Program-made: the position numbers and the translations under genes
In this document: positions 3,524-19,220 of the stretch, piece by piece
Layout: each line of letters opens with the position of its first letter
Position numbering within the stretch: the first letter of the stretch is position 1
From: a virus
Strand: one strand, 5' to 3'
IMG/VR virus record: IMGVR_UViG_3300036466_000094
Span: 1 to 20,412 of that record
Length of the DNA: 20,412 bases
The notes under the pieces: generated by a model
Seen by the model: the letters and a program-made list of their open reading frames with translations, nothing else
Databases searched by the model: none
Told to the model about the DNA's origin: nothing

Positions 3524-3555
3524 GATTTTAATTCTCCACTTTAGTGTATGTATTA

Positions 3556-3590
3556 AGGATAGCAAAAAGGCCTGCATGATGCAAGCCTTA
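3556..3590 (-). terminator. Hairpin terminator fused to a putative extended -10 promoter, copy 1
   Basis: On the minus strand a hairpin (AAGGCTTGC, loop ATCAT, GCAGGCCTT; 3567-3589) is followed by a T run, a good intrinsic terminator for the gp41 unit. One stem pair is G-U in minus-strand RNA but would be a C-A mismatch in plus-strand RNA, so the stem is kept for minus-strand transcripts. The same DNA reads as a promoter: TTGCAT (3579-3584), 17 bases, then TGC and TATCCT (3556-3561). A second copy lies at 19185-19220. The terminator is firm; the promoter is inferred. Confidence 0.8.
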
Positions 3591-5880: not shown

Positions 5881-5909
5881 ATTTTACTCTTAAATGCATA
5901 TTGTGTCAA
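5881..5909 (-). promoter_or_regulatory. Sigma70-type (early) promoter for the gp41 unit
   Basis: On the minus strand a perfect -35 hexamer TTGACA (5904-5909) is followed by 17 bases and TAAAAT (5881-5886), one base off the -10 consensus. Transcription would start near 5874 and give a leader of about 24 bases before the ATG at 5850. A second TATAAT lies just downstream at 5869-5874 without a good -35. This is the best host-type promoter I see in the window. Confidence 0.82.
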
Positions 5910-5996
5910 TGAAAAATAATTTTATTTAAATGTCGGCTGTAACCCGCATTGCGCCGTTGAAATGTGAAATGTTGAAGTTTTGGGCCTGAAAATTAA

Positions 5997-6004
5997 TATA
6001 AATA
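5997..6004 (+). promoter_or_regulatory. Candidate plus-strand T4-type late promoter box
   Basis: An exact TATAAATA faces right inside the non-coding region. A transcript would start near 6010, pass through the inverted repeat at 6096-6163 and run antisense to the end of the polymerase gene. No convincing protein follows. In this AT-rich sequence the box could be chance, but its place in an intergenic region makes it worth noting. Confidence 0.4.
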
Positions 6005-6095
6005 ATTCTGAGTCCTCAACCACTATACAAACCACATTCGCCGCGCTACGCACGTTGGTCGACATTAATAATATAGAGCAAAAGCAAAGAAGTTG

Positions 6096-6163
6096 TAGCC
6101 ATGTATTTTATTCCTTTCACTGCGTTCAATCCCTTCGGGAACACGGAATAAAATACATGGCTA
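6096..6163. repeat. 19-bp perfect inverted repeat with 30-base structured loop
   Basis: The left arm TAGCCATGTATTTTATTCC (6096-6114) and the right arm (6145-6163) are perfect complements. The 30-base loop between them is GC-richer and contains an inner hairpin (TCCC, TTC, GGGA). It begins 22 bases past the polymerase stop. No T run follows on the minus strand, so it is not an obvious terminator. It may protect the 3' end of the polymerase mRNA, be an RNA element, or be the trace of a mobile or template-switch event. Confidence 0.85.
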
Positions 6164-6184
6164 TCGCGTTGCGAGTTTACCGGA

Positions 6185-9100
6185 TTACATAAAAAAGGCT
6201 TCCAGTGTGGCAACTTCTTCAGGATTCCACTTTAAGATCTCCATGAATCGCTTTAATGGCGATAAAAAGTTTTTCTCAAATGCAAGGTTGTAGTCAATAT
6301 AATCGTGAAGACCCAATCGCTCATCGAGGAATGAAGGGAATGCCACTTTTGAATATTTAACTGGGTTTGGTTCTTTCAACTCAATAAGTTTAACCTTATC
6401 ACCATCGATAATTTTATCGACTTCATTTTCCAAACCTAACACATCAATTTGGTGATTATACAGAATACCACATCTAGCTTGCCAACTGGCTTCCTGTTTA
6501 TAAATCGTCACCGGATCACTGTTTTTATTGATACCATTACATGATGAGTTTTTAGCAATCACATGTACAGGTAAAGTTTTCCATTCAGCTTTATATTCAG
6601 CAATTTTGGCTTGGAATGCCTTTTCATCTTTGTCAACGATGATTTTATACATTACCTTTAACCAACCGCGCACAATTTCGGGTGTTGTCGACTTGATAGC
6701 ATCTTGTCCCATCACTTTCCAGTATGGATCGCCATCGGCAGATCTTACACCTTCCATATCCCAACACTTGAGAATATAACGCTTTTTAGCTGTCCAGAAT
6801 CCGGCCTGTGCGATTGCTTCACGCGACATATTCATTTTCTGTACTTTGGCATTAGTATACACTTTAAGTTCTTCGTATGCATCATCCATGAACTTTTGCA
6901 GGTACTTATTGCCGAAGTTATCCAAGAAATCCACAATTCGATTTTTAGCTTGTTCATCACCAGCTTCAGCAAGATCATAATCTTCGCGGCGATGTTTTTT
7001 AACAATGCCATCGACATTAATATAATTCGAGTCTGTATCAATTGCGATTACCTGATTTTCGATATATTCGCCGTTTGCATCTTTTGGCGTACCCAATAAA
7101 CGATTTAGGTCATTGGATAGACGCTCTGCAATAAATTGAATTGCAACTTGACCGGACAACGTGATCGCTTCAGCTAATTTAATATTAAAGAATCTGAAAT
7201 AACGGTTACCGATGGCACCATATGCTGAGTTTAACAAAATCTTCTTTGCCATTTGCATACAGTTTAATCGTGCGGCTTCGTTGTCACATTGTTTTGCCAT
7301 TTGTAAGGCTTCAACTCGTGATAGTCCAGATTTGTTTTTAAATAACAACTCTTCTTTCAATTTGCCAATTTTACGCTTATCGGTCATCAATTCTTCACGC
7401 ACAACAAACTCTTGGTTTTCTGCGTAGGTTTTCCACCAAACCGATTCTTGTTCCATTGCCAACATTTGACGTTTGTCGAATTTACGACCTTTATAGTTGA
7501 ATTCCATCAACTCAGAAATAAACGACTGTTTGCGATTGTCGAAACATGCCAAGTTACCAGCCATGCCAATAGGATATTTTTTAAGTGCCGATAAATCTGG
7601 CTCGAATTTGGCAAATCGCATGATATAAGCATCGCGGCCACGTTCGCCATCAATAACTGGATCACCATATTCATCAAAATCATAACCTTCGATATTGTCG
7701 AGCATCATTCGTATTGGATCTGGTAATTTGTGTTCAGGGATCAATGTTTCTGGGCCGATATTCCACTGCATGATTAAGTGTGGATATAGTGAATCCAAAT
7801 CGACTGATAACAACCAACCTTTTTTGCCAAGTTGAGGATCTTTAACAAACGCACCAGCATATCGACGAGGTTTATCTGATAATTTCATCGCCGGAACAAC
7901 TTGTTTTCGAGTATCCATGAGGTAATTCGTTATGATCACATCCCACGTTCGAACGGGTGAATTTGTATCTTCATAGTTGATCTTTGCATAATATGCAACA
8001 GTTAATACAACATCAATAAAGTGCTTTTTACGCTCGATACGCTCGACACACAAAATATCAACCGCGTTGTATTCCACATATTTTTGGAAATCCATTCTGA
8101 ATAGCTTGCGCAAGCTGCCAGCTTCTTCATATGATAGTTTACCGTCTTTAAGTTCAACGTGTGATATGTGGTTGAGTGTATAGGATTCTTGCGCCTTATA
8201 GGTATACTTTTTATAAAGTGCCATGTAATCGAGTTGAGCGACCCCCATGATATCAAACACATCACGCATGTTACCATAATCGTCTTCTTTTTGACGCTTA
8301 TTGACAACCCGCCACGGTGATAATTCTTTGACCGATTCTTCACCCAACACTTTTTCGATTCGGTTGCATAAATACGGAGTATCAAAACCTTCGCTGTTCC
8401 AACCAGTGTATATGTGTGGTGTGTTTTCGGCCCAAAACTTTATAAATTCGCGTAAAGTTTCAGATTCATCTTCACAATCATGGTATATGATATCATCCGG
8501 TGTTAAGTCATGTTGTGGGCCATGTGCTTCGATATTGTCAGCATGTGCTTTAGCATTATATGATTTACATGCAACAATTGGATCCCAATCAAGATTTCCA
8601 AATCCAAAAATATGGTATTTTTTATCGTATGAGTCCAACACACCAACCAAAGTGACAGGCCATTCTGCTAATTCTGGTTTTGGGAATGCATCATCATGAG
8701 TGAATCGGAAATATTTGATCGGCTTCCAACCATCATGAGTTTCAATTTCAACACCATTCATTGTGTTTAATTTTGGCATCATGGCTTGAATTTGTTTTCT
8801 ACCGATAAGTTTTTCGACACCTTTCATTCGAATTTTCATTTCTTGTCGTTCGCCATACATTTGCACGGCCGACTGAACTTCGATATCTAAATTGAATAGT
8901 CGTATTTTTGATTGGTCATATTGGATTTCACCGCTATATTCACGAGCGATAAACTGTGATACAAAATCATCATTTCCGTATACTTGGAACCCATCAACAC
9001 CATCATATTTTGATACAAATTCGGTAGCATCTCGCATGGTTTCGAATTTTACGGGATCGAGCGCTTCGCCAGTAACGGCATGATAATTTGCAGATTTAGG

Positions 9101-9238
9101 GTCTTTTGAACGTGTAAACAAAACAGGTTTGAATTTAATCTTGCGTTGAACTTCCCGATCTTGATCCACATTCCATTCGCGCAATAAGATCATGTTTCCA
9201 CGTCTAACTGCGTTTAGATAGAAATTTCGTGTGTGCAT
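6185..9238 (-). CDS. 43: DNA polymerase (T4 gp43-like, family B with 3'-5' exonuclease)
   Basis: This is the replicative polymerase. Exonuclease motifs are ExoI LDIE (D118, E120), ExoII NSEGFD (281-286, with D286) and ExoIII YNAVD (Y390, D394). Polymerase motif A is DLDSLYP (480-486), motif B is KILLNSAYG (666-674) and motif C is IDTDS (733-737). The C-terminal 30 residues, like those of T4 gp43, should contact the sliding clamp. At 1017 residues it is about 120 longer than T4 gp43 (898), with the extra length spread over insertions rather than one added domain. The ATG at 9238 has AAAGGT seven bases upstream, just after the Dam gene. All motifs are intact, with no intron or split. Confidence 0.98.
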   Translation of the reverse strand: MHTRNFYLNAVRRGNMILLREWNVDQDREVQRKIKFKPVLFTRSKDPKSANYHAVTGEALDPVKFETMRDATEFVSKYDGVDGFQVYGNDDFVSQFIAREYSGEIQYDQSKIRLFNLDIEVQSAVQMYGERQEMKIRMKGVEKLIGRKQIQAMMPKLNTMNGVEIETHDGWKPIKYFRFTHDDAFPKPELAEWPVTLVGVLDSYDKKYHIFGFGNLDWDPIVACKSYNAKAHADNIEAHGPQHDLTPDDIIYHDCEDESETLREFIKFWAENTPHIYTGWNSEGFDTPYLCNRIEKVLGEESVKELSPWRVVNKRQKEDDYGNMRDVFDIMGVAQLDYMALYKKYTYKAQESYTLNHISHVELKDGKLSYEEAGSLRKLFRMDFQKYVEYNAVDILCVERIERKKHFIDVVLTVAYYAKINYEDTNSPVRTWDVIITNYLMDTRKQVVPAMKLSDKPRRYAGAFVKDPQLGKKGWLLSVDLDSLYPHLIMQWNIGPETLIPEHKLPDPIRMMLDNIEGYDFDEYGDPVIDGERGRDAYIMRFAKFEPDLSALKKYPIGMAGNLACFDNRKQSFISELMEFNYKGRKFDKRQMLAMEQESVWWKTYAENQEFVVREELMTDKRKIGKLKEELLFKNKSGLSRVEALQMAKQCDNEAARLNCMQMAKKILLNSAYGAIGNRYFRFFNIKLAEAITLSGQVAIQFIAERLSNDLNRLLGTPKDANGEYIENQVIAIDTDSNYINVDGIVKKHRREDYDLAEAGDEQAKNRIVDFLDNFGNKYLQKFMDDAYEELKVYTNAKVQKMNMSREAIAQAGFWTAKKRYILKCWDMEGVRSADGDPYWKVMGQDAIKSTTPEIVRGWLKVMYKIIVDKDEKAFQAKIAEYKAEWKTLPVHVIAKNSSCNGINKNSDPVTIYKQEASWQARCGILYNHQIDVLGLENEVDKIIDGDKVKLIELKEPNPVKYSKVAFPSFLDERLGLHDYIDYNLAFEKNFLSPLKRFMEILKWNPEEVATLEAFFM

Positions 9239-9248
9239 AGATTACCTT

Positions 9249-10136
9249 TTAATATAAAAAATCTTCAAGTGTACCCAAATTGCAAAGAGGAATGTTAGTT
9301 ACAATCACCTCAACGGTTTTATTGCTATCGTCGGAGGTACGGCCGATCCGATAGTTCTTATTCACATATAATACATTATATTTGCTCATCCAGTCAATTA
9401 GAATTTGATTTATTTGACCTTTGTGTTTTGTAACGTTTGATAATATAAATCGACCGCCACTTTCGACACGTTGATCTATCATCGCATACAATAGTCGATC
9501 CGTATCTGCTTCCCAACCATGATTGTAAACTGCTTTGGTGATTAAGTAAGGTGGGTCGATATAATCAAGTGTGTTTTTATCAGCCGGATGTTTGCGCATA
9601 AACTCGATAAATGATTCATTATGTAATTCAACTCTTTCTAATGCATCATGAGTTTGGTGCAACTCATCCATCCACATATCATTAAAATCCCAAGTTCGTT
9701 TACCAAATGGCATATTAAATCCGGTCTTTTTGCTCCATCGGCACGTTGATGAAAATGCATGGCGTGTTAATACGATGTCAAAAATACCAACACTTGGTGG
9801 TACATTTCGAATTGAGTTTATATGATCTTTCGCGCGTAGGTAACCATCTTCATTTTCTTTAGTAAGATGAAACTCTTCGATGGTGTTTTTGACGATGGTG
9901 GCCACGGTAACCGCGCTATAATTTTTAAGATCATAAACCATTTGAAAAACATTATGATCTAATTCATTATATTCTATTTTAGTATGTGGGAATGTATCAG
10001 CAGCATTAATTGCAAAACAACCAGAACCGCCAAAGATATCATTAATTTTTGATATCCCAATTTTTGGAATTAATTTAAAAACGTATGGCAATAGCTCGAA
10101 CTTAGCACCACTGTATGGAATTATATTTTGTATCAT
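9249..10136 (-). CDS. dam: DNA adenine-N6 methyltransferase (Dam-like)
   Basis: This class-alpha adenine methyltransferase transfers a methyl group from S-adenosylmethionine to adenine, in T4 Dam within GATC. Near the N-terminus is PYSGAKFELLP (T4: AYTGNKQSLLP). The SAM-binding loop is FGGSGCFA (35-42), and the catalytic DPPYLIT lies at 194-200, identical to T4 Dam. MPFGKRT (142-148) also matches T4 (TPFGKRT). Length is 295 against 259 in T4. The ATG has GAGGT six bases upstream, and the gene lies 10 bases before the polymerase gene. It probably protects phage DNA from host restriction or marks it; GATC specificity is inferred from similarity. Confidence 0.92.
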   Translation of the reverse strand: MIQNIIPYSGAKFELLPYVFKLIPKIGISKINDIFGGSGCFAINAADTFPHTKIEYNELDHNVFQMVYDLKNYSAVTVATIVKNTIEEFHLTKENEDGYLRAKDHINSIRNVPPSVGIFDIVLTRHAFSSTCRWSKKTGFNMPFGKRTWDFNDMWMDELHQTHDALERVELHNESFIEFMRKHPADKNTLDYIDPPYLITKAVYNHGWEADTDRLLYAMIDQRVESGGRFILSNVTKHKGQINQILIDWMSKYNVLYVNKNYRIGRTSDDSNKTVEVIVTNIPLCNLGTLEDFLY

Positions 10137-14592: not shown

Positions 14593-16187
14593 GCCATTAC
14601 ACCAGCGGCCGCGGCACGCGCATCTCGACTAGATGGTTGACGTGATGCTTTGGCTCGTTCAATTTCGATCTGTTCATCAACGGCTTGATACAATTTGGCA
14701 AATGAAGTTCGAGTCTCTTCGTTGAAACGTTCAACACCGACTTTAATTGCACGTTCCCGCGCACCAAATATAACAAATGCCTTTAATATATCAACACCAC
14801 GTCGAGTCGAGATAACATCATTTGTAGCACCAGATTCATGGCTCTGTCTGACAATATCACACCATTTAACCATACGCGAACAGAATTCACTATCGCTACT
14901 ACTTAGCTCGTTGCCGCCATCATACACAAATCTAAAATGTGCTAATGCAGTCTCGAAAATCTTAAGTTCGACTTTTGGTGATGGGTATGGATTGTGAAGC
15001 ATAATTGGGAATCGATCTAAAAATGCTTCGTTTAATATTTTTGTTCCGGCAAACTTGCCAACTGTATCACCTTGACCCTTTGTATTAGCGGTTGCGAATA
15101 CAGTGAACCCATTAACAGGTTTGACAACTTCACCAGTCTTTTTAATCAATACGGGTTTACCGGATAATACAGATTGTAAACATGACAATTTTGATGATCC
15201 ATAATCGATTTCATCTAACAGTAATGGACAACCGCGGCGCATTGCAATAACAACTGGGCCATCTTGCCAAACTGTATTCCCATTCACCAATCGGTAACCA
15301 CCTAACAAATCATCTTCGTCGGTTTCTTCGGTGATATTGACAATTAACAATTCTTTATTGAGTTCGGCACATGCCTGTTCAATACCTAATGTTTTACCGT
15401 TGCCAGATAGTCCGGTAATGTATGCTGGATAGAACATATTTCGTTCTAAAATCTTGACAATATCGGCATAAATCCCCCAACGGATGAACAATTTATCAAT
15501 ATCCGGAATATAAAAACCTTTTGGTTTTGGTGGGACATTGTGAACATCTTCTTTAGTGTTGAACACTTTTCCAAATGCACTTGCTAACTTTTCAATTGTA
15601 TCATCATCAATGCCACCAAAACTTAATGGCGATGAATCTGGCAATGGTTGGTGTGAATATGGTGATACCATCGTATTATCTAATAATTGGCTTTTAGTGT
15701 TACTAAAATCCGGAAATTCATCATCAAGATCGACGGTATTTGCTGGTTTTCCACTTGAAGTTTCAAAATCCATAAGTTCCTCTTTTGGTTCTGGTGCACC
15801 AAGTGGACACCACGGAGTATAATCGTCAGAAAAATCGTGTAAATTTTCACCAATTCTTCGTTCATGAACGGCCCAACGTGGGATATTGTGGCCATGTATA
15901 AGTTTTAGATCTTTGAGTTGTTGCGATGTGATAATAAGACTTTCATGATGTAATAGTATCTTATCACGTACAAACCCAAGTTCAAGTTCAGAATAACTTT
16001 TGTGTCTTTCATAATCCAATTCGGTGCCAATATAATATTCACCAGAACCGATAATACAAAATCCGTAAACCCAAGCTGGCACCTTAAATTCAGTTACCGA
16101 TTTCAATTCATCATACGAAATCAATTCTTTACCAAAATGCTCAATTAGCATGTTGGTTATTTTTGTATACTCTGGTGATATAATCAT
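14583..16187 (-). CDS. MoxR/CobS-like AAA+ ATPase
   Basis: The C-terminal half is an AAA+ module of the MoxR/CobS type: Walker A GLSGNGKT (259-266), Walker B PLLLDEID (321-328), sensor 1 ATANT (365-369) and arginine finger LDRF (390-393). The N-terminal 230 residues are unrecognised, with an acidic, proline- and serine-rich linker at about 140-190. Such ATPases act as hexamers with a von Willebrand A partner to insert metals or remodel proteins, and the VWA partner is two genes upstream. T4-like marine phages often carry a gene called cobS, but a role in cobalamin synthesis is not shown. The ATG at 16187 overlaps the previous stop by one base (TAATG). The gene ends in the frameshift signal at 14525-14592. 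Confidence 0.9.
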   Translation of the reverse strand: MIISPEYTKITNMLIEHFGKELISYDELKSVTEFKVPAWVYGFCIIGSGEYYIGTELDYERHKSYSELELGFVRDKILLHHESLIITSQQLKDLKLIHGHNIPRWAVHERRIGENLHDFSDDYTPWCPLGAPEPKEELMDFETSSGKPANTVDLDDEFPDFSNTKSQLLDNTMVSPYSHQPLPDSSPLSFGGIDDDTIEKLASAFGKVFNTKEDVHNVPPKPKGFYIPDIDKLFIRWGIYADIVKILERNMFYPAYITGLSGNGKTLGIEQACAELNKELLIVNITEETDEDDLLGGYRLVNGNTVWQDGPVVIAMRRGCPLLLDEIDYGSSKLSCLQSVLSGKPVLIKKTGEVVKPVNGFTVFATANTKGQGDTVGKFAGTKILNEAFLDRFPIMLHNPYPSPKVELKIFETALAHFRFVYDGGNELSSSDSEFCSRMVKWCDIVRQSHESGATNDVISTRRGVDILKAFVIFGARERAIKVGVERFNEETRTSFAKLYQAVDEQIEIERAKASRQPSSRDARAAAAGVMAKK

Positions 16188-16465
16188 TATGAATACTCTG
16201 TTAATATTGCATCTAAATTTTCAACACAAATATAATTTGCATGTTCGCGTTCATTATCATGGCGACGGCCAATCGCGCGCCATTCTGCTAATTTTGCCTT
16301 GAACATAATAATTCTTCGGCGTAATTCTGGCGAGTCCGACGGATCCAATTTCAAATCGTCGTGGCCATCTAGGTTCAACTCCGGCATAATTCCGGTTTTG
16401 TCAAACTCCTTACTTTGTGCAATTAATGCAGTAAGTAAGGTATCAAAAAATTCATTAAATTCCAT
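16187..16465 (-). CDS. Hypothetical protein, 92 residues, between VWA and AAA+ genes
   Basis: The family is not recognised. The protein is helical and highly charged: a hydrophobic N-terminal helix (EFFDTLLTALIAQ), a central segment rich in aspartate (LDGHDDLKLDPSDSPE), then a basic helix (RRRIIMFKAKLAEWRAIGRRH). Its start overlaps the end of the VWA gene by 11 bases, and its stop shares a base with the ATPase start. It is therefore co-translated with both and may be a third subunit or adaptor of the AAA+/VWA machine. That role is inferred from position only. Confidence 0.82.
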   Translation of the reverse strand: MEFNEFFDTLLTALIAQSKEFDKTGIMPELNLDGHDDLKLDPSDSPELRRRIIMFKAKLAEWRAIGRRHDNEREHANYICVENLDAILTEYS

Positions 16466-19034
16466 CGTTTGTCATCTTCTTTGATATCGTTGTGAGTAGT
16501 GTATCAGCCAAAACTTTTATTTGCAACATCTTTTTCGACTGTTCTATGAATTGAGTTGCAATACTGTTCATTGATTTAGATGAATCTAATGATAGTTCAC
16601 ATTCAACATCTCGGTCTAAACTGAAAATAATACTATCATTTCCAATAACTCCGGTTGCAGTTGTGCAATTTTGCTTTTTCAATAATCCCAAATGAGTATC
16701 GATTTCACTTCTAGGAAGTAACATTTCAATCATCATGTTCAAAAACGCACTGGCACCAATATACAAGGTTATTATCGAAGAATCAACACGATCACGATAT
16801 AAATCTGTAATAATTCGAGATAATACGATTCTAGAAGTATCATTTGGTTTAACAATATAATCATAACTTGAATATTTTTTCCTAGTTAATTCGTCATGTA
16901 TGATGAAATTATCCCGACCTCGATAATCTAACCCAATTTTAGCATCACCAGCCATACCATCGGTCAATAACATGGTACTCATAATCTCAACTGAGTGCGC
17001 TTCCTTCCACTCTTTGATAACTTGTGATGCAATCACCAATGCTTCGTTAGTTGGTGTACCCTCGAAGCGCTCACACGGCGTGATGCCATATCTAGCACCA
17101 CTATTATGTGACATCGCTTCACGATATAAATTCCGCATGATTTGGCGTTGGGTTAACATCGGCAAGTCTGAATTTATAATTTCACGTAGAACAACACGAT
17201 CAACGGATAAACTTGTCAACGAACTATCATTTTTATATTTGCCAATTTTCAATGGTATTTCAATGTTTTTAACACTGCGGTAATTATAAACCGATTGGTT
17301 TGTAAACCCATAAACAACATATGGAATATTGACCGACTGGCAAAACATGATCATGATTAATGTTTGTCTCCACGTTTGATACATTCTACTACCGGACATT
17401 GAGCCGGAAAAATCCAATAATAATGCAATTCCGTGATTTTTGCCATCTTCTACCATTGAACATGATTTGAAAATGTCTTCACTTATGCTATAAAATGCCA
17501 ATTTCTTGAGGTCTAACCTTCCAGTTTTTGCGGTACGCACCCGCCGAGACTCCGCGGCATTCTTGCGTAAATCAAACATCTGTTTCATTATTTCAATGGT
17601 TTTGGCCTCATTCTTTTGGAACTTGATCCATTGATTATTAATAGTTTTTATGGTTCGTGGTTCATCTCTTATTATTGATGCATTCCATGAAGTGTGCACA
17701 ACTTTGGCCGGATCCACGAAATCCTTTGGATTTAGTAGATTTCGAACTGCCAAATTTTTGATATCTTTCGCGTCCAAATCAACTTCATTATCCGCGATTG
17801 CATTTGCAAAGTTGGATATAGATTGAATTACGTTGGGTTGGTCTTGATTTGATGATTCATTACCACCATTTTCGATTAAGCTCCCGTCGAGAGTATCGGA
17901 TACTTCATCGCTGGAATCAGAATCCCCCGCATTACTTCCAGATCCATCGTCGCCTGATCCATCTTCGGATCCATCTTCGGTATCGTCATCAGATCCAGAT
18001 TCATCAGTGGCGTCGTTGGCATCCTCGGCATCGTCACCATCTTGGTCGGCATCTTCGTCGGAGTAGTCGGCATCATCATCGTCATCATCTTGGTCTGATC
18101 CGATCTCATTGCTTTTTTGATGATCTGGTGAATCTTCGTCTTGTTCATCATCGATTTCGGATCCATCTGTACCCGAGTTTTCAGAAACGTCGTCGTCGTC
18201 GCTGTGTTCATCTTCCAATCCATCTTCGGAATTATCAGATCCACATGATTCATCTTCGGCTTCATCATCTTCGGATTCGTCTTCGTCGGAAGTGTCACCG
18301 GAACTATCATCGGCTTCATCGAGTTCATCAGTCTCTGAATCATCGCCGTCGTCGCTTGGCTGTCCGGCGTCGTCGTCATCACAATCATCGGTGGATTCTT
18401 CCGGTTCATCGTTGGGTTTAGATTCATTTTGTTGTTCCTCATCTTTCTTGCGTTGTTCCTCATCTTTCTTGCGTTGTTCCTCTTGCAAGTATTCGATGAT
18501 ATCACGAGCCAATACACACGCATCTTTAAACGATTCAACTTTATTCAAATCATTTTTAAATGTGGTTTCAATTGGTGACATTGGAATGTCGATCCACGGT
18601 AATTTTGCCGAAATATTAAGTTTATCAACAAGATTGATATTTCCTAGATCTTTGCCACGTAGACCAAAATAATCACGATCCCAAAACTCTAGATACATTC
18701 GAGATAATGTACTTACTAAACCGGGGTATTCTATTTTTAGGAATTTGGCGGTACGTGCTTGTTCAACCATTTGGATGATTTGGCCATAACCTTCATGCAT
18801 ACCTTCTAATTTAGATTTTATTGATAGGAATTTTACTGGTGGTGTCCATAATGCGTGCGCAACTTCACTGGCCATCATTCCATCGAAAATATCACCTTCC
18901 ATCTCTTTGTAAACTGGTAGGCTTAATATTCTTTTATTCAAATCAAAATGTGCAGCAGTTATGCCACCTTCATGGATAATAGTAATGTCTTCTTTAGCTA
19001 ATAATTTAGCAAGAATACTAGTTGTTGCTGTCAT
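16455..19034 (-). CDS. CobT-like protein: degenerate peptidase-like N-terminus, acidic linker, VWA domain
   Basis: Three parts can be seen. Residues 1-180 contain SEVAHALWTPP (56-66) and MVEQARTAKFLKIEYPGL (89-106). These resemble the HExxH helix and the third-ligand helix of metallopeptidase-like domains in phage VWA proteins, but the first zinc histidine is serine here. Residues about 200-385 are an extremely acidic D/E/S-rich linker. The C-terminal VWA domain has an intact metal site, DFSGS at 541-545 with LLTDGMAG later. CobT of aerobic cobaltochelatase likewise has an acidic linker before a VWA domain, and such proteins work with an AAA+ partner, here at 14583-16187. GAGG precedes the ATG at 19034, which overlaps the upstream gene. 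The target of this machine is unknown. Confidence 0.85.
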   Translation of the reverse strand: MTATTSILAKLLAKEDITIIHEGGITAAHFDLNKRILSLPVYKEMEGDIFDGMMASEVAHALWTPPVKFLSIKSKLEGMHEGYGQIIQMVEQARTAKFLKIEYPGLVSTLSRMYLEFWDRDYFGLRGKDLGNINLVDKLNISAKLPWIDIPMSPIETTFKNDLNKVESFKDACVLARDIIEYLQEEQRKKDEEQRKKDEEQQNESKPNDEPEESTDDCDDDDAGQPSDDGDDSETDELDEADDSSGDTSDEDESEDDEAEDESCGSDNSEDGLEDEHSDDDDVSENSGTDGSEIDDEQDEDSPDHQKSNEIGSDQDDDDDDADYSDEDADQDGDDAEDANDATDESGSDDDTEDGSEDGSGDDGSGSNAGDSDSSDEVSDTLDGSLIENGGNESSNQDQPNVIQSISNFANAIADNEVDLDAKDIKNLAVRNLLNPKDFVDPAKVVHTSWNASIIRDEPRTIKTINNQWIKFQKNEAKTIEIMKQMFDLRKNAAESRRVRTAKTGRLDLKKLAFYSISEDIFKSCSMVEDGKNHGIALLLDFSGSMSGSRMYQTWRQTLIMIMFCQSVNIPYVVYGFTNQSVYNYRSVKNIEIPLKIGKYKNDSSLTSLSVDRVVLREIINSDLPMLTQRQIMRNLYREAMSHNSGARYGITPCERFEGTPTNEALVIASQVIKEWKEAHSVEIMSTMLLTDGMAGDAKIGLDYRGRDNFIIHDELTRKKYSSYDYIVKPNDTSRIVLSRIITDLYRDRVDSSIITLYIGASAFLNMMIEMLLPRSEIDTHLGLLKKQNCTTATGVIGNDSIIFSLDRDVECELSLDSSKSMNSIATQFIEQSKKMLQIKVLADTLLTTISKKMTNDGI
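18431..18482. repeat. 21-base tandem repeat in the VWA gene
   Basis: The unit GTTGTTCCTCATCTTTCTTGC occurs at 18431-18451 and 18452-18472, with ten bases of a third copy. It encodes a repeated EEQRKKD heptad just before the acidic linker, extending a charged helix. The two full copies are identical in DNA, pointing to a recent slippage duplication. Confidence 0.9.
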
Positions 19035-19158: not shown

Positions 19159-19184
19159 GACTACCTCCAATAATCTATACATTA

Positions 19185-19220
19185 AAGATAGCAAAAAGGC
19201 TTGCATGATGCAAGCCTTTT
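19185..19220 (-). terminator. Hairpin terminator fused to a putative extended -10 promoter, copy 2
   Basis: AAAGGCTTGC, loop ATCAT, GCAAGCCTTT form a perfect hairpin followed by T runs on both strands, so it can stop transcription of the 55-residue/TM2 unit and perhaps in the other direction. As in copy 1, the minus strand also reads TTGCAT (19208-19213), 17 bases, TGC and TATCTT (19185-19190), a candidate promoter for the AAA+/VWA unit. Identity with copy 1 runs through the hairpin and about 15 bases beyond. Confidence 0.82.

Follow-up and report, generated by a model that had tools for sequence, protein, structure and literature searches.

A phage CobT-like protein with a degenerate zincin-like domain, probably a non-catalytic adaptor of a MoxR-type AAA+ ATPase

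T4-like cyanophages carry a gene pair encoding a peptidase-VWA protein (phrog_459, T4-GC 146) and a CobS-like AAA+ ATPase (T4-GC 150), flanked by gp45, gp44, gp62 and regA. The cobS gene has been counted in the core genome of these phages (PMC3037559), and the cobST pair has likewise been placed there (PMC8651126). Two published readings of such pairs conflict. As described in PMC8651126, the phrog_459-type pair of haloarchaeal tailed viruses and cyanophages is cobaltochelatase CobT/CobS, and the label 'peptidase' for viral CobT is a mistake; as described in PMC7824862, group 2.2 jumbo phages encode a MoxR ATPase with a metallopeptidase-vWA co-chaperone, for which virion assembly is suggested. 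Our literature search found no experimental test of the function of the CobS/CobT-like pair; the cobS treated in PMC8749415 is another one. Here we analyzed a CobT-like protein of 859 aa encoded in IMG/VR virus record IMGVR_UViG_3300036466_000094, positions 1 to 20,412 (this whole stretch of 20,412 bases is called the window below). Its domain order and neighbors are those of the cyanophage phrog_459 system, from which it differs by the loss of HExxH and NxxEDxRIE, by the longest linker, by a larger AAA+ N-terminus and by an extra 92-aa gene lying between the two partners. What was computed directly comprises homology, intact AAA+ and MIDAS motifs, a zincin-like model, a conserved gene pairing, and the loss both of HExxH and of three residues in the next helix. 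We propose, with a probability of about 0.6, that the protein serves a phage MoxR-type AAA+ remodeller as its VWA adaptor and that its N-terminal zincin domain has lost the metal centre, yielding a non-catalytic pseudo-peptidase. It is probably a variant of the known phage MoxR/VWA adaptor and not a new type of system: the family and the gene pair are already in print, and what sets this member apart is the apparent loss of its protease centre. The protein and its parts are the following.

16455..19034, minus strand: CobT-like protein, 859 aa, with a zincin-like N-terminal domain, an acidic linker and a VWA/MIDAS domain
18465..19034, minus strand: N-terminal domain, residues 1-190, predicted zincin-like fold
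18855..18869, minus strand: SEVAH (residues 56-60), the counterpart of HExxH, with Ser in place of His56
18747..18773, minus strand: QMVEQARTA, residues 88-96, at the position of the family motif NxxEDxR[IV]E
17847..18389, minus strand: core of the acidic linker, residues 216-396
16470..17633, minus strand: VWA region, residues 468-855, with MIDAS residues D541/S543/S545, T660 and D692

An earlier note on this DNA, made from the sequence alone, had placed an open reading frame (ORF) at 16455-19034; these coordinates hold, and the gene lies on the minus strand, with an ATG start, one stop and a frame open across 859 codons. The protein matches phrog_459 ('peptidase', T4-like phages; E 6e-120) over two stretches corresponding to both conserved domains, and aligns over its full length with the cyanophage T4-GC 146 'peptidase' proteins. 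SEVAHALWTPP and the later VEQAR...YPGL had been taken for metallopeptidase helices. Indeed, SEVAH, VEQAR (residues 90-94) and the YPGL that follows align with HEVGHALxTP ... NVxEDxRIE ... YPGL of the cyanophage relatives, and both this whole-domain alignment and a structural model that puts SEVAH and VEQAR in two helices argue that SEVAH is not a chance match. Replacement of the first His by Ser, also proposed in the note, is confirmed: the Ser56 codon is AGT, two base changes from a His codon, so that a single sequencing error does not account for it.

The motif was surveyed in loci fetched through the VWA half or through CobS, without use of the peptidase motif; both large scans comprised the best 80 of at least 600 matches, so that the sampled loci are those closest to the VWA and CobS of the window. 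HExxH was intact in 71/71, 34/34 and 52/52 readable rows and in 6/6 named phages, that is, in 163/163 relatives with a readable motif, representing 147 distinct sequences (148 with the window, some contigs having been fetched by two scans). The window was the sole exception. Four domain rows cut at the motif (three in the VWA scan, one in the second CobS scan) are not counted, and the 163 do not include the bacterial-contig loci L135-L160, mostly phage-like, or L216, which came from a motif-directed pattern search. The second motif, NxxEDxR[IV]E, was kept in 162/164 readable relatives' rows, the other two reading RID, and is lost in the window. Degenerate domains were not simply overlooked in the VWA loci where no N-terminal domain was detected, since all 26 of them end at a contig edge. 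A pattern scan of viral_contigs for the motif without its first His, covering the commonest motif form, returned three stretches, one of them in a family member (L216, 4449-6398). In this second member without the first His, the motif reads KEVGH, NIVEDARVE is intact, and CobS and gp45 adjoin. The change in the window is real and very rare within its family.

AlphaFold, run on 44 aligned sequences with the window's protein first, modelled the N-terminal domain at pLDDT 92.1 and pTM 0.85, as a helix and three strands followed by two helices that hold SEVAH (47-63) and VEQAR (83-102). The best solved matches in VIA-align were ZMPSTE24 (Z 6.3, rmsd 4.1, 135 aligned) and ArdC (6.0, 4.3, 118), followed by selecase (5.7, 3.7, 95), BlaR1 (5.6, 4.7, 116), abylysin (5.2, 4.2, 93) and jannalysin (5.1, 4.0, 96), all of which we take to be zincins; zincin families missing from this list are not ruled out by their absence. 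Because the match list agrees with itself and with the HExxH of the relatives, the predicted domain can be called zincin-like, at modest strength. Sequence searches of the PDB returned nothing useful, with one titin row at E 0.79.

Among 24 columns conserved at 99% or more, the window differs in five (T27A, H56S, N88Q, D92Q and E96A), and at 97% conservation G59A, I95T and F122Y are changed as well, while E57, H60, E91 and R94 are kept. At the level of at least 95%, 24 of 33 columns are kept and nine are changed, comprising, as raw counts, 6/14 motif columns and 3/19 others. N88, D92 and E96, near-invariant in the relatives, are spaced i, i+4 and i+8 on the predicted helix 83-102, and thus probably share one face of it. 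Either D92 or E91 may be the third metal ligand. Catalytic zincins bind metal through HExxH, where the window has SEVAH; with a metal ligand and one face of the partner helix both gone, the most fitting interpretation is that the catalytic metal site has been lost, in agreement with the degenerate peptidase-like N-terminus that the note had described.

It could be argued that the protein is still an active metallopeptidase with a rearranged metal site, formed by E57, H60, E91 and another residue, and that it cuts phage structural proteins with the AAA+ ATPase acting as unfoldase, as proposed in PMC7824862 for group 2.2 jumbo phages. The motif's presence in every surveyed relative suggests that proteolysis probably matters in the family, and the three kept residues and the confident model are compatible with a working site. 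However, H56 is missing, the helix that follows has lost three residues from one of its faces, and the neighboring genes are replication genes, not virion genes; we consider this explanation decidedly unlikely. The N-terminal domain might instead have become functionless and be drifting in this lineage, with the VWA domain and the ATPase alone still in use. Such a state would fit the loss of residues that are near-invariant in all relatives, but the domain still models at pLDDT 92, most of the conserved columns are kept and the frame is open throughout, which makes drift an unlikely account.

Several observations weigh against a non-catalytic, repurposed domain. The zincin matches are modest, with Z of about 5-6 and a best Foldseek E of 0.23, and VIA-align warns that such Z values can be non-specific. 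With E57, H60 and E91 retained, a weak or altered metal site is possible. With nine of the 33 columns conserved at 95% or more changed, the losses could represent ordinary drift in a divergent lineage. The change in L216 could be a lone mutation, and loss of the first His need not mean repurposing. Finally, the window's protein is a single sequence, with no close relatives for selection tests on the changed residues. On the other hand, PMC7159879 describes fusions of vWA proteins to inactive peptidase domains as common in other MoxR-vWA systems, which makes a pseudo-peptidase a credible route.

The alignment with relatives shows no variation at D541-x-S543-x-S545, T660 or D692, and the VWA metal site is intact, as the note had stated. 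Among 997 aligned chains, the VWA model (pLDDT 73.7) best matched the midasin MIDAS domain (Z 17.4, rmsd 2.7, 210 aligned) and the NorD VWA domain (Z 16.1, rmsd 4.2, 231 aligned); the top eight rows were all midasin/Rea1 or NorD, other VWA proteins scoring Z 13.8 and below. Both families partner AAA+ motors. Midasin/Rea1 also has an acidic stretch before its MIDAS domain but, unlike the window pair, combines motor and MIDAS within one eukaryotic giant protein. In the window, the core of the linker (residues 216-396) is 75% D/E/S/G and 48% D/E, so that the earlier description, of some 185 residues consisting almost wholly of D, E, S and G, was overstated. Across 137 two-domain proteins, the linker has a median of 148 aa and 27% D/E; that of the window, at 277 aa, is the longest of the 137 and, with 39% D/E, the second most acidic. 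It is the extreme of a family trait, not exceptional in kind as had been suggested.

The AAA+ partner bears out the pairing proposed in the note. It carries intact Walker A (GLSGNGKT, at residue 259) and Walker B (LLLDEID, at 322) motifs, matches Pfam AAA_5 (E 1.1e-18) and phrog_249 ('porphyrin biosynthesis'; E 2e-87), and shares 51-55% identity with cyanophage CobS across the AAA region. Its open frame extends about 260 residues before the AAA domain, compared with at most 210 in 190 relatives. The locus combines sequence marks of a MoxR AAA+/VWA pair, namely intact Walker A and B motifs and a VWA domain with MIDAS D-x-S-x-S, T and D, whose model is most like those of AAA+ adaptors. NorQ/NorD shares this composition (PMC9976466, PMC13036017), although the N-terminal part of NorD differs and its client is known, cNOR. 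The group 2.2 jumbo phage system, likened by its description in PMC7824862, shares the AAA+ plus peptidase-vWA composition; it is described there as a peptidase, whereas the window's copy has no catalytic motif.

These features suggest how the pair might work. The CobS-like ATPase would assemble as a ring and hydrolyze ATP, the VWA domain would dock on that ring, and its MIDAS metal ion would grip an acidic residue of the client. By way of the long acidic linker, the N-terminal domain might extend to the client, hold it in position or shield it as the ring pulls, and the linker might also transmit force. The layout as a whole is proposed by analogy with NorQD, where, as described in PMC13036017, the AAA+ pore takes up a finger of the VWA domain and a linker of NorD is twisted and stretched by the motor. 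In nearly all relatives the N-terminal domain would be able to cut; in the window it would only bind, most likely acting as a docking site for clients on an ATP-driven remodeller, with no catalysis, which suggests that this phage kept remodelling and not cutting. We infer ring formation, complex formation, client binding and the absence of proteolysis. From the neighborhood of the clamp gene alone, one may guess that the client is a component of phage replication or late transcription. With its protease centre apparently lost, this natural family member sets cutting and remodelling apart, and points to residues whose removal from a cultured relative would be informative and to the phenotype, one or the other, to seek there.

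The genes around the CobT-like ORF are listed below.

16187..16465, minus strand: 92-aa protein, an ORF whose start overlaps the CobT-like end and whose stop codon overlaps the CobS-like start codon
14583..16187, minus strand: CobS-like MoxR AAA+ ATPase, 534 aa
13729..14421, minus strand: gp45 sliding clamp, the next gene downstream of the CobS-like gene, assigned by library matches and a conserved neighbor
19194..19220, minus strand: terminator-like hairpin upstream of the gene group, with a 12-pair stem and a T-rich tail; a near-identical copy lies at 3542-3589

Upstream of gp45, the order of transcription is the 859-aa CobT-like ORF, the 92-aa ORF and the 534-aa AAA+ ORF. Since their ends and starts overlap and a terminator-like hairpin lies upstream, the three probably form one transcription unit. 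The note had treated the 92-aa protein as a general part of the machine; this is not supported, no relatives having been detected, including in a protein scan of viral_contigs. Protein scans of the same collection with the 859-aa protein and with the DNA polymerase of the window found no relatives either. A more speculative idea, which we consider doubtful, is that the peptidase was traded for pure remodelling and that the dead domain, the 92-aa orphan and the enlarged AAA+ N-terminus together make up a new module for recognizing clients. In that case, the core job of the family would be ATP-driven remodelling, with cutting as an add-on, and cellular CobT, of which 31/31 lack HExxH, would have gone the same way independently.

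Relatives of the 859-aa protein were found by tblastn in 463 of 50,697 phage records, mainly cyanophages, and the AAA+ search gave equal record numbers (Synechococcus 365, Cyanophage 61, Prochlorococcus 24). P-SSM4, S-RSM4 and P-HM1 share with the window the order peptidase, cobS, gp45, gp44, with small genes, pcyA or speD interposed at some of these junctions. Among IMG/VR loci with room for the neighbor, the VWA gene lies upstream of CobS in 81/87 CobS loci, CobS downstream of VWA in 28/33 VWA loci, and gp45 downstream of CobS in 55/67 CobS loci; both neighbors typical of phrog_459, the CobS-like AAA+ and gp45, adjoin in the window. Eleven loci break the VWA/CobS order rules; in L124 and L125, the N-terminal domain is instead encoded downstream of CobS. 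Proteins from Haloarcula californiae tailed virus 2 and from Haloarcula hispanica tailed virus 2 are among the BFVD structural matches, and the viral CobS/CobT described in PMC8651126 is the same gene pair as that of the window. Relatives are present in bacterial contigs too, so that the note's view of the machine as phage-built is not supported. HExxH CobT-like proteins occur in contigs of Methylobacter, Geobacteraceae and others (L161-L177; HExxH in 17/17, partly by construction, these loci having been fetched or picked with patterns containing HExxH or EDxRIE), with a CobS-like gene upstream in 13/17 loci and at least one gene interposed in the three loci read.

Some members of the family are organized or annotated differently. 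In Pseudoalteromonas phage vB_Psh_XG4 (L008), VWA and peptidase are separate overlapping ORFs in reversed order (5902-7119 and 7110-8162), upstream of CobS and gp45. The S-SKS1 record (HQ633071, L006) leaves unannotated both the peptidase-VWA gene (5977-8037) and an open frame at the usual place of CobS (about 8743-9570). In S-CREM2 (L007, 3992-6037), the corresponding protein bears the annotation 'ribosome assembly protein', which may stem from its likeness to midasin.

Could the protein be a cobaltochelatase subunit? According to PMC8651126, the phage CobS/CobT pair of tailed viruses, including cyanophages, would act with host CobN and raise cobalamin. Cobaltochelatase CobT shares with the window's protein the acidic linker, the MIDAS VWA domain and the missing HExxH, found in 0/31 true CobTs by an alignment-free count. 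These 31 are L178 and 30 loci (L185-L214) from 61 genomes of one bacterial order, chosen by MIDAS motif; for L188 the count covers the protein from an internal Met onwards, and L179-L184 belong to the HExxH group and are not counted as CobT. The CobS-like protein also matches TIGR01650 (E 4.6e-19), but its score, 68.7 bits, lies far below the cut-off of 558.55. The 859-aa protein has no NCBIfam match at E up to 0.1 (the TIGR01651 CobT cut-off being 759 bits) and no PF06213 match at E up to 1, and reaches 18.4 bits with PF11775, under the cut-off of 21. CobN was not found in 11/11 relatives' records, nor did any of ten window proteins scanned match it, the window itself being a 20 kb fragment. 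In addition, all other surveyed members keep a peptidase motif that is absent from 31/31 true CobTs. We therefore regard a cobaltochelatase role as improbable.

Kinship is a separate matter. The bacterial HExxH relatives match PF06213, the CobT N-terminal model, above cut-off, and profile alignment relates them to the phage domain at 99.3% probability and to true CobT at 26% (E 7e-4), while direct alignment of the phage domain with true CobT is weak (1.8%). It is thus the bacterial HExxH set that ties the phage domain to CobT. By these sequence comparisons, distant kinship to CobT is real, as is that of the N-terminal domain of cellular CobT to the HExxH proteins, and a CobT role is not supported. 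Cobaltochelatase CobT may itself have descended from a peptidase-like protein. A by-eye alignment that took HNETIH of true CobT as the counterpart of HExxH was not supported by profile alignment. The note's opinion that a cobalamin label would mislead is plausible, the curated CobT/CobS cut-offs being missed by far, although the hijack of host CobN envisaged in PMC8651126 is not refuted by these figures. The survey argues against naming the whole family CobT and for 'peptidase' as an apt label for most members, though not for the window's protein; it favors the metallopeptidase-vWA description given in PMC7824862, with the window as an exception.

The window also carries a T4-like replication module, almost wholly on the minus strand, with primase, helicase, DNA polymerase B, dam, clamp-loader and clamp genes. 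Two near-identical (88%) terminator-like sequences, each a hairpin plus T-run, lie at 3542-3589 and 19171-19218, and each makes a probably spurious ORF start reading MQAFLLSL. The DNA polymerase B (6185-9238, 1017 aa) aligns over its full length with an 856-position profile, and thus has about 160 extra residues.

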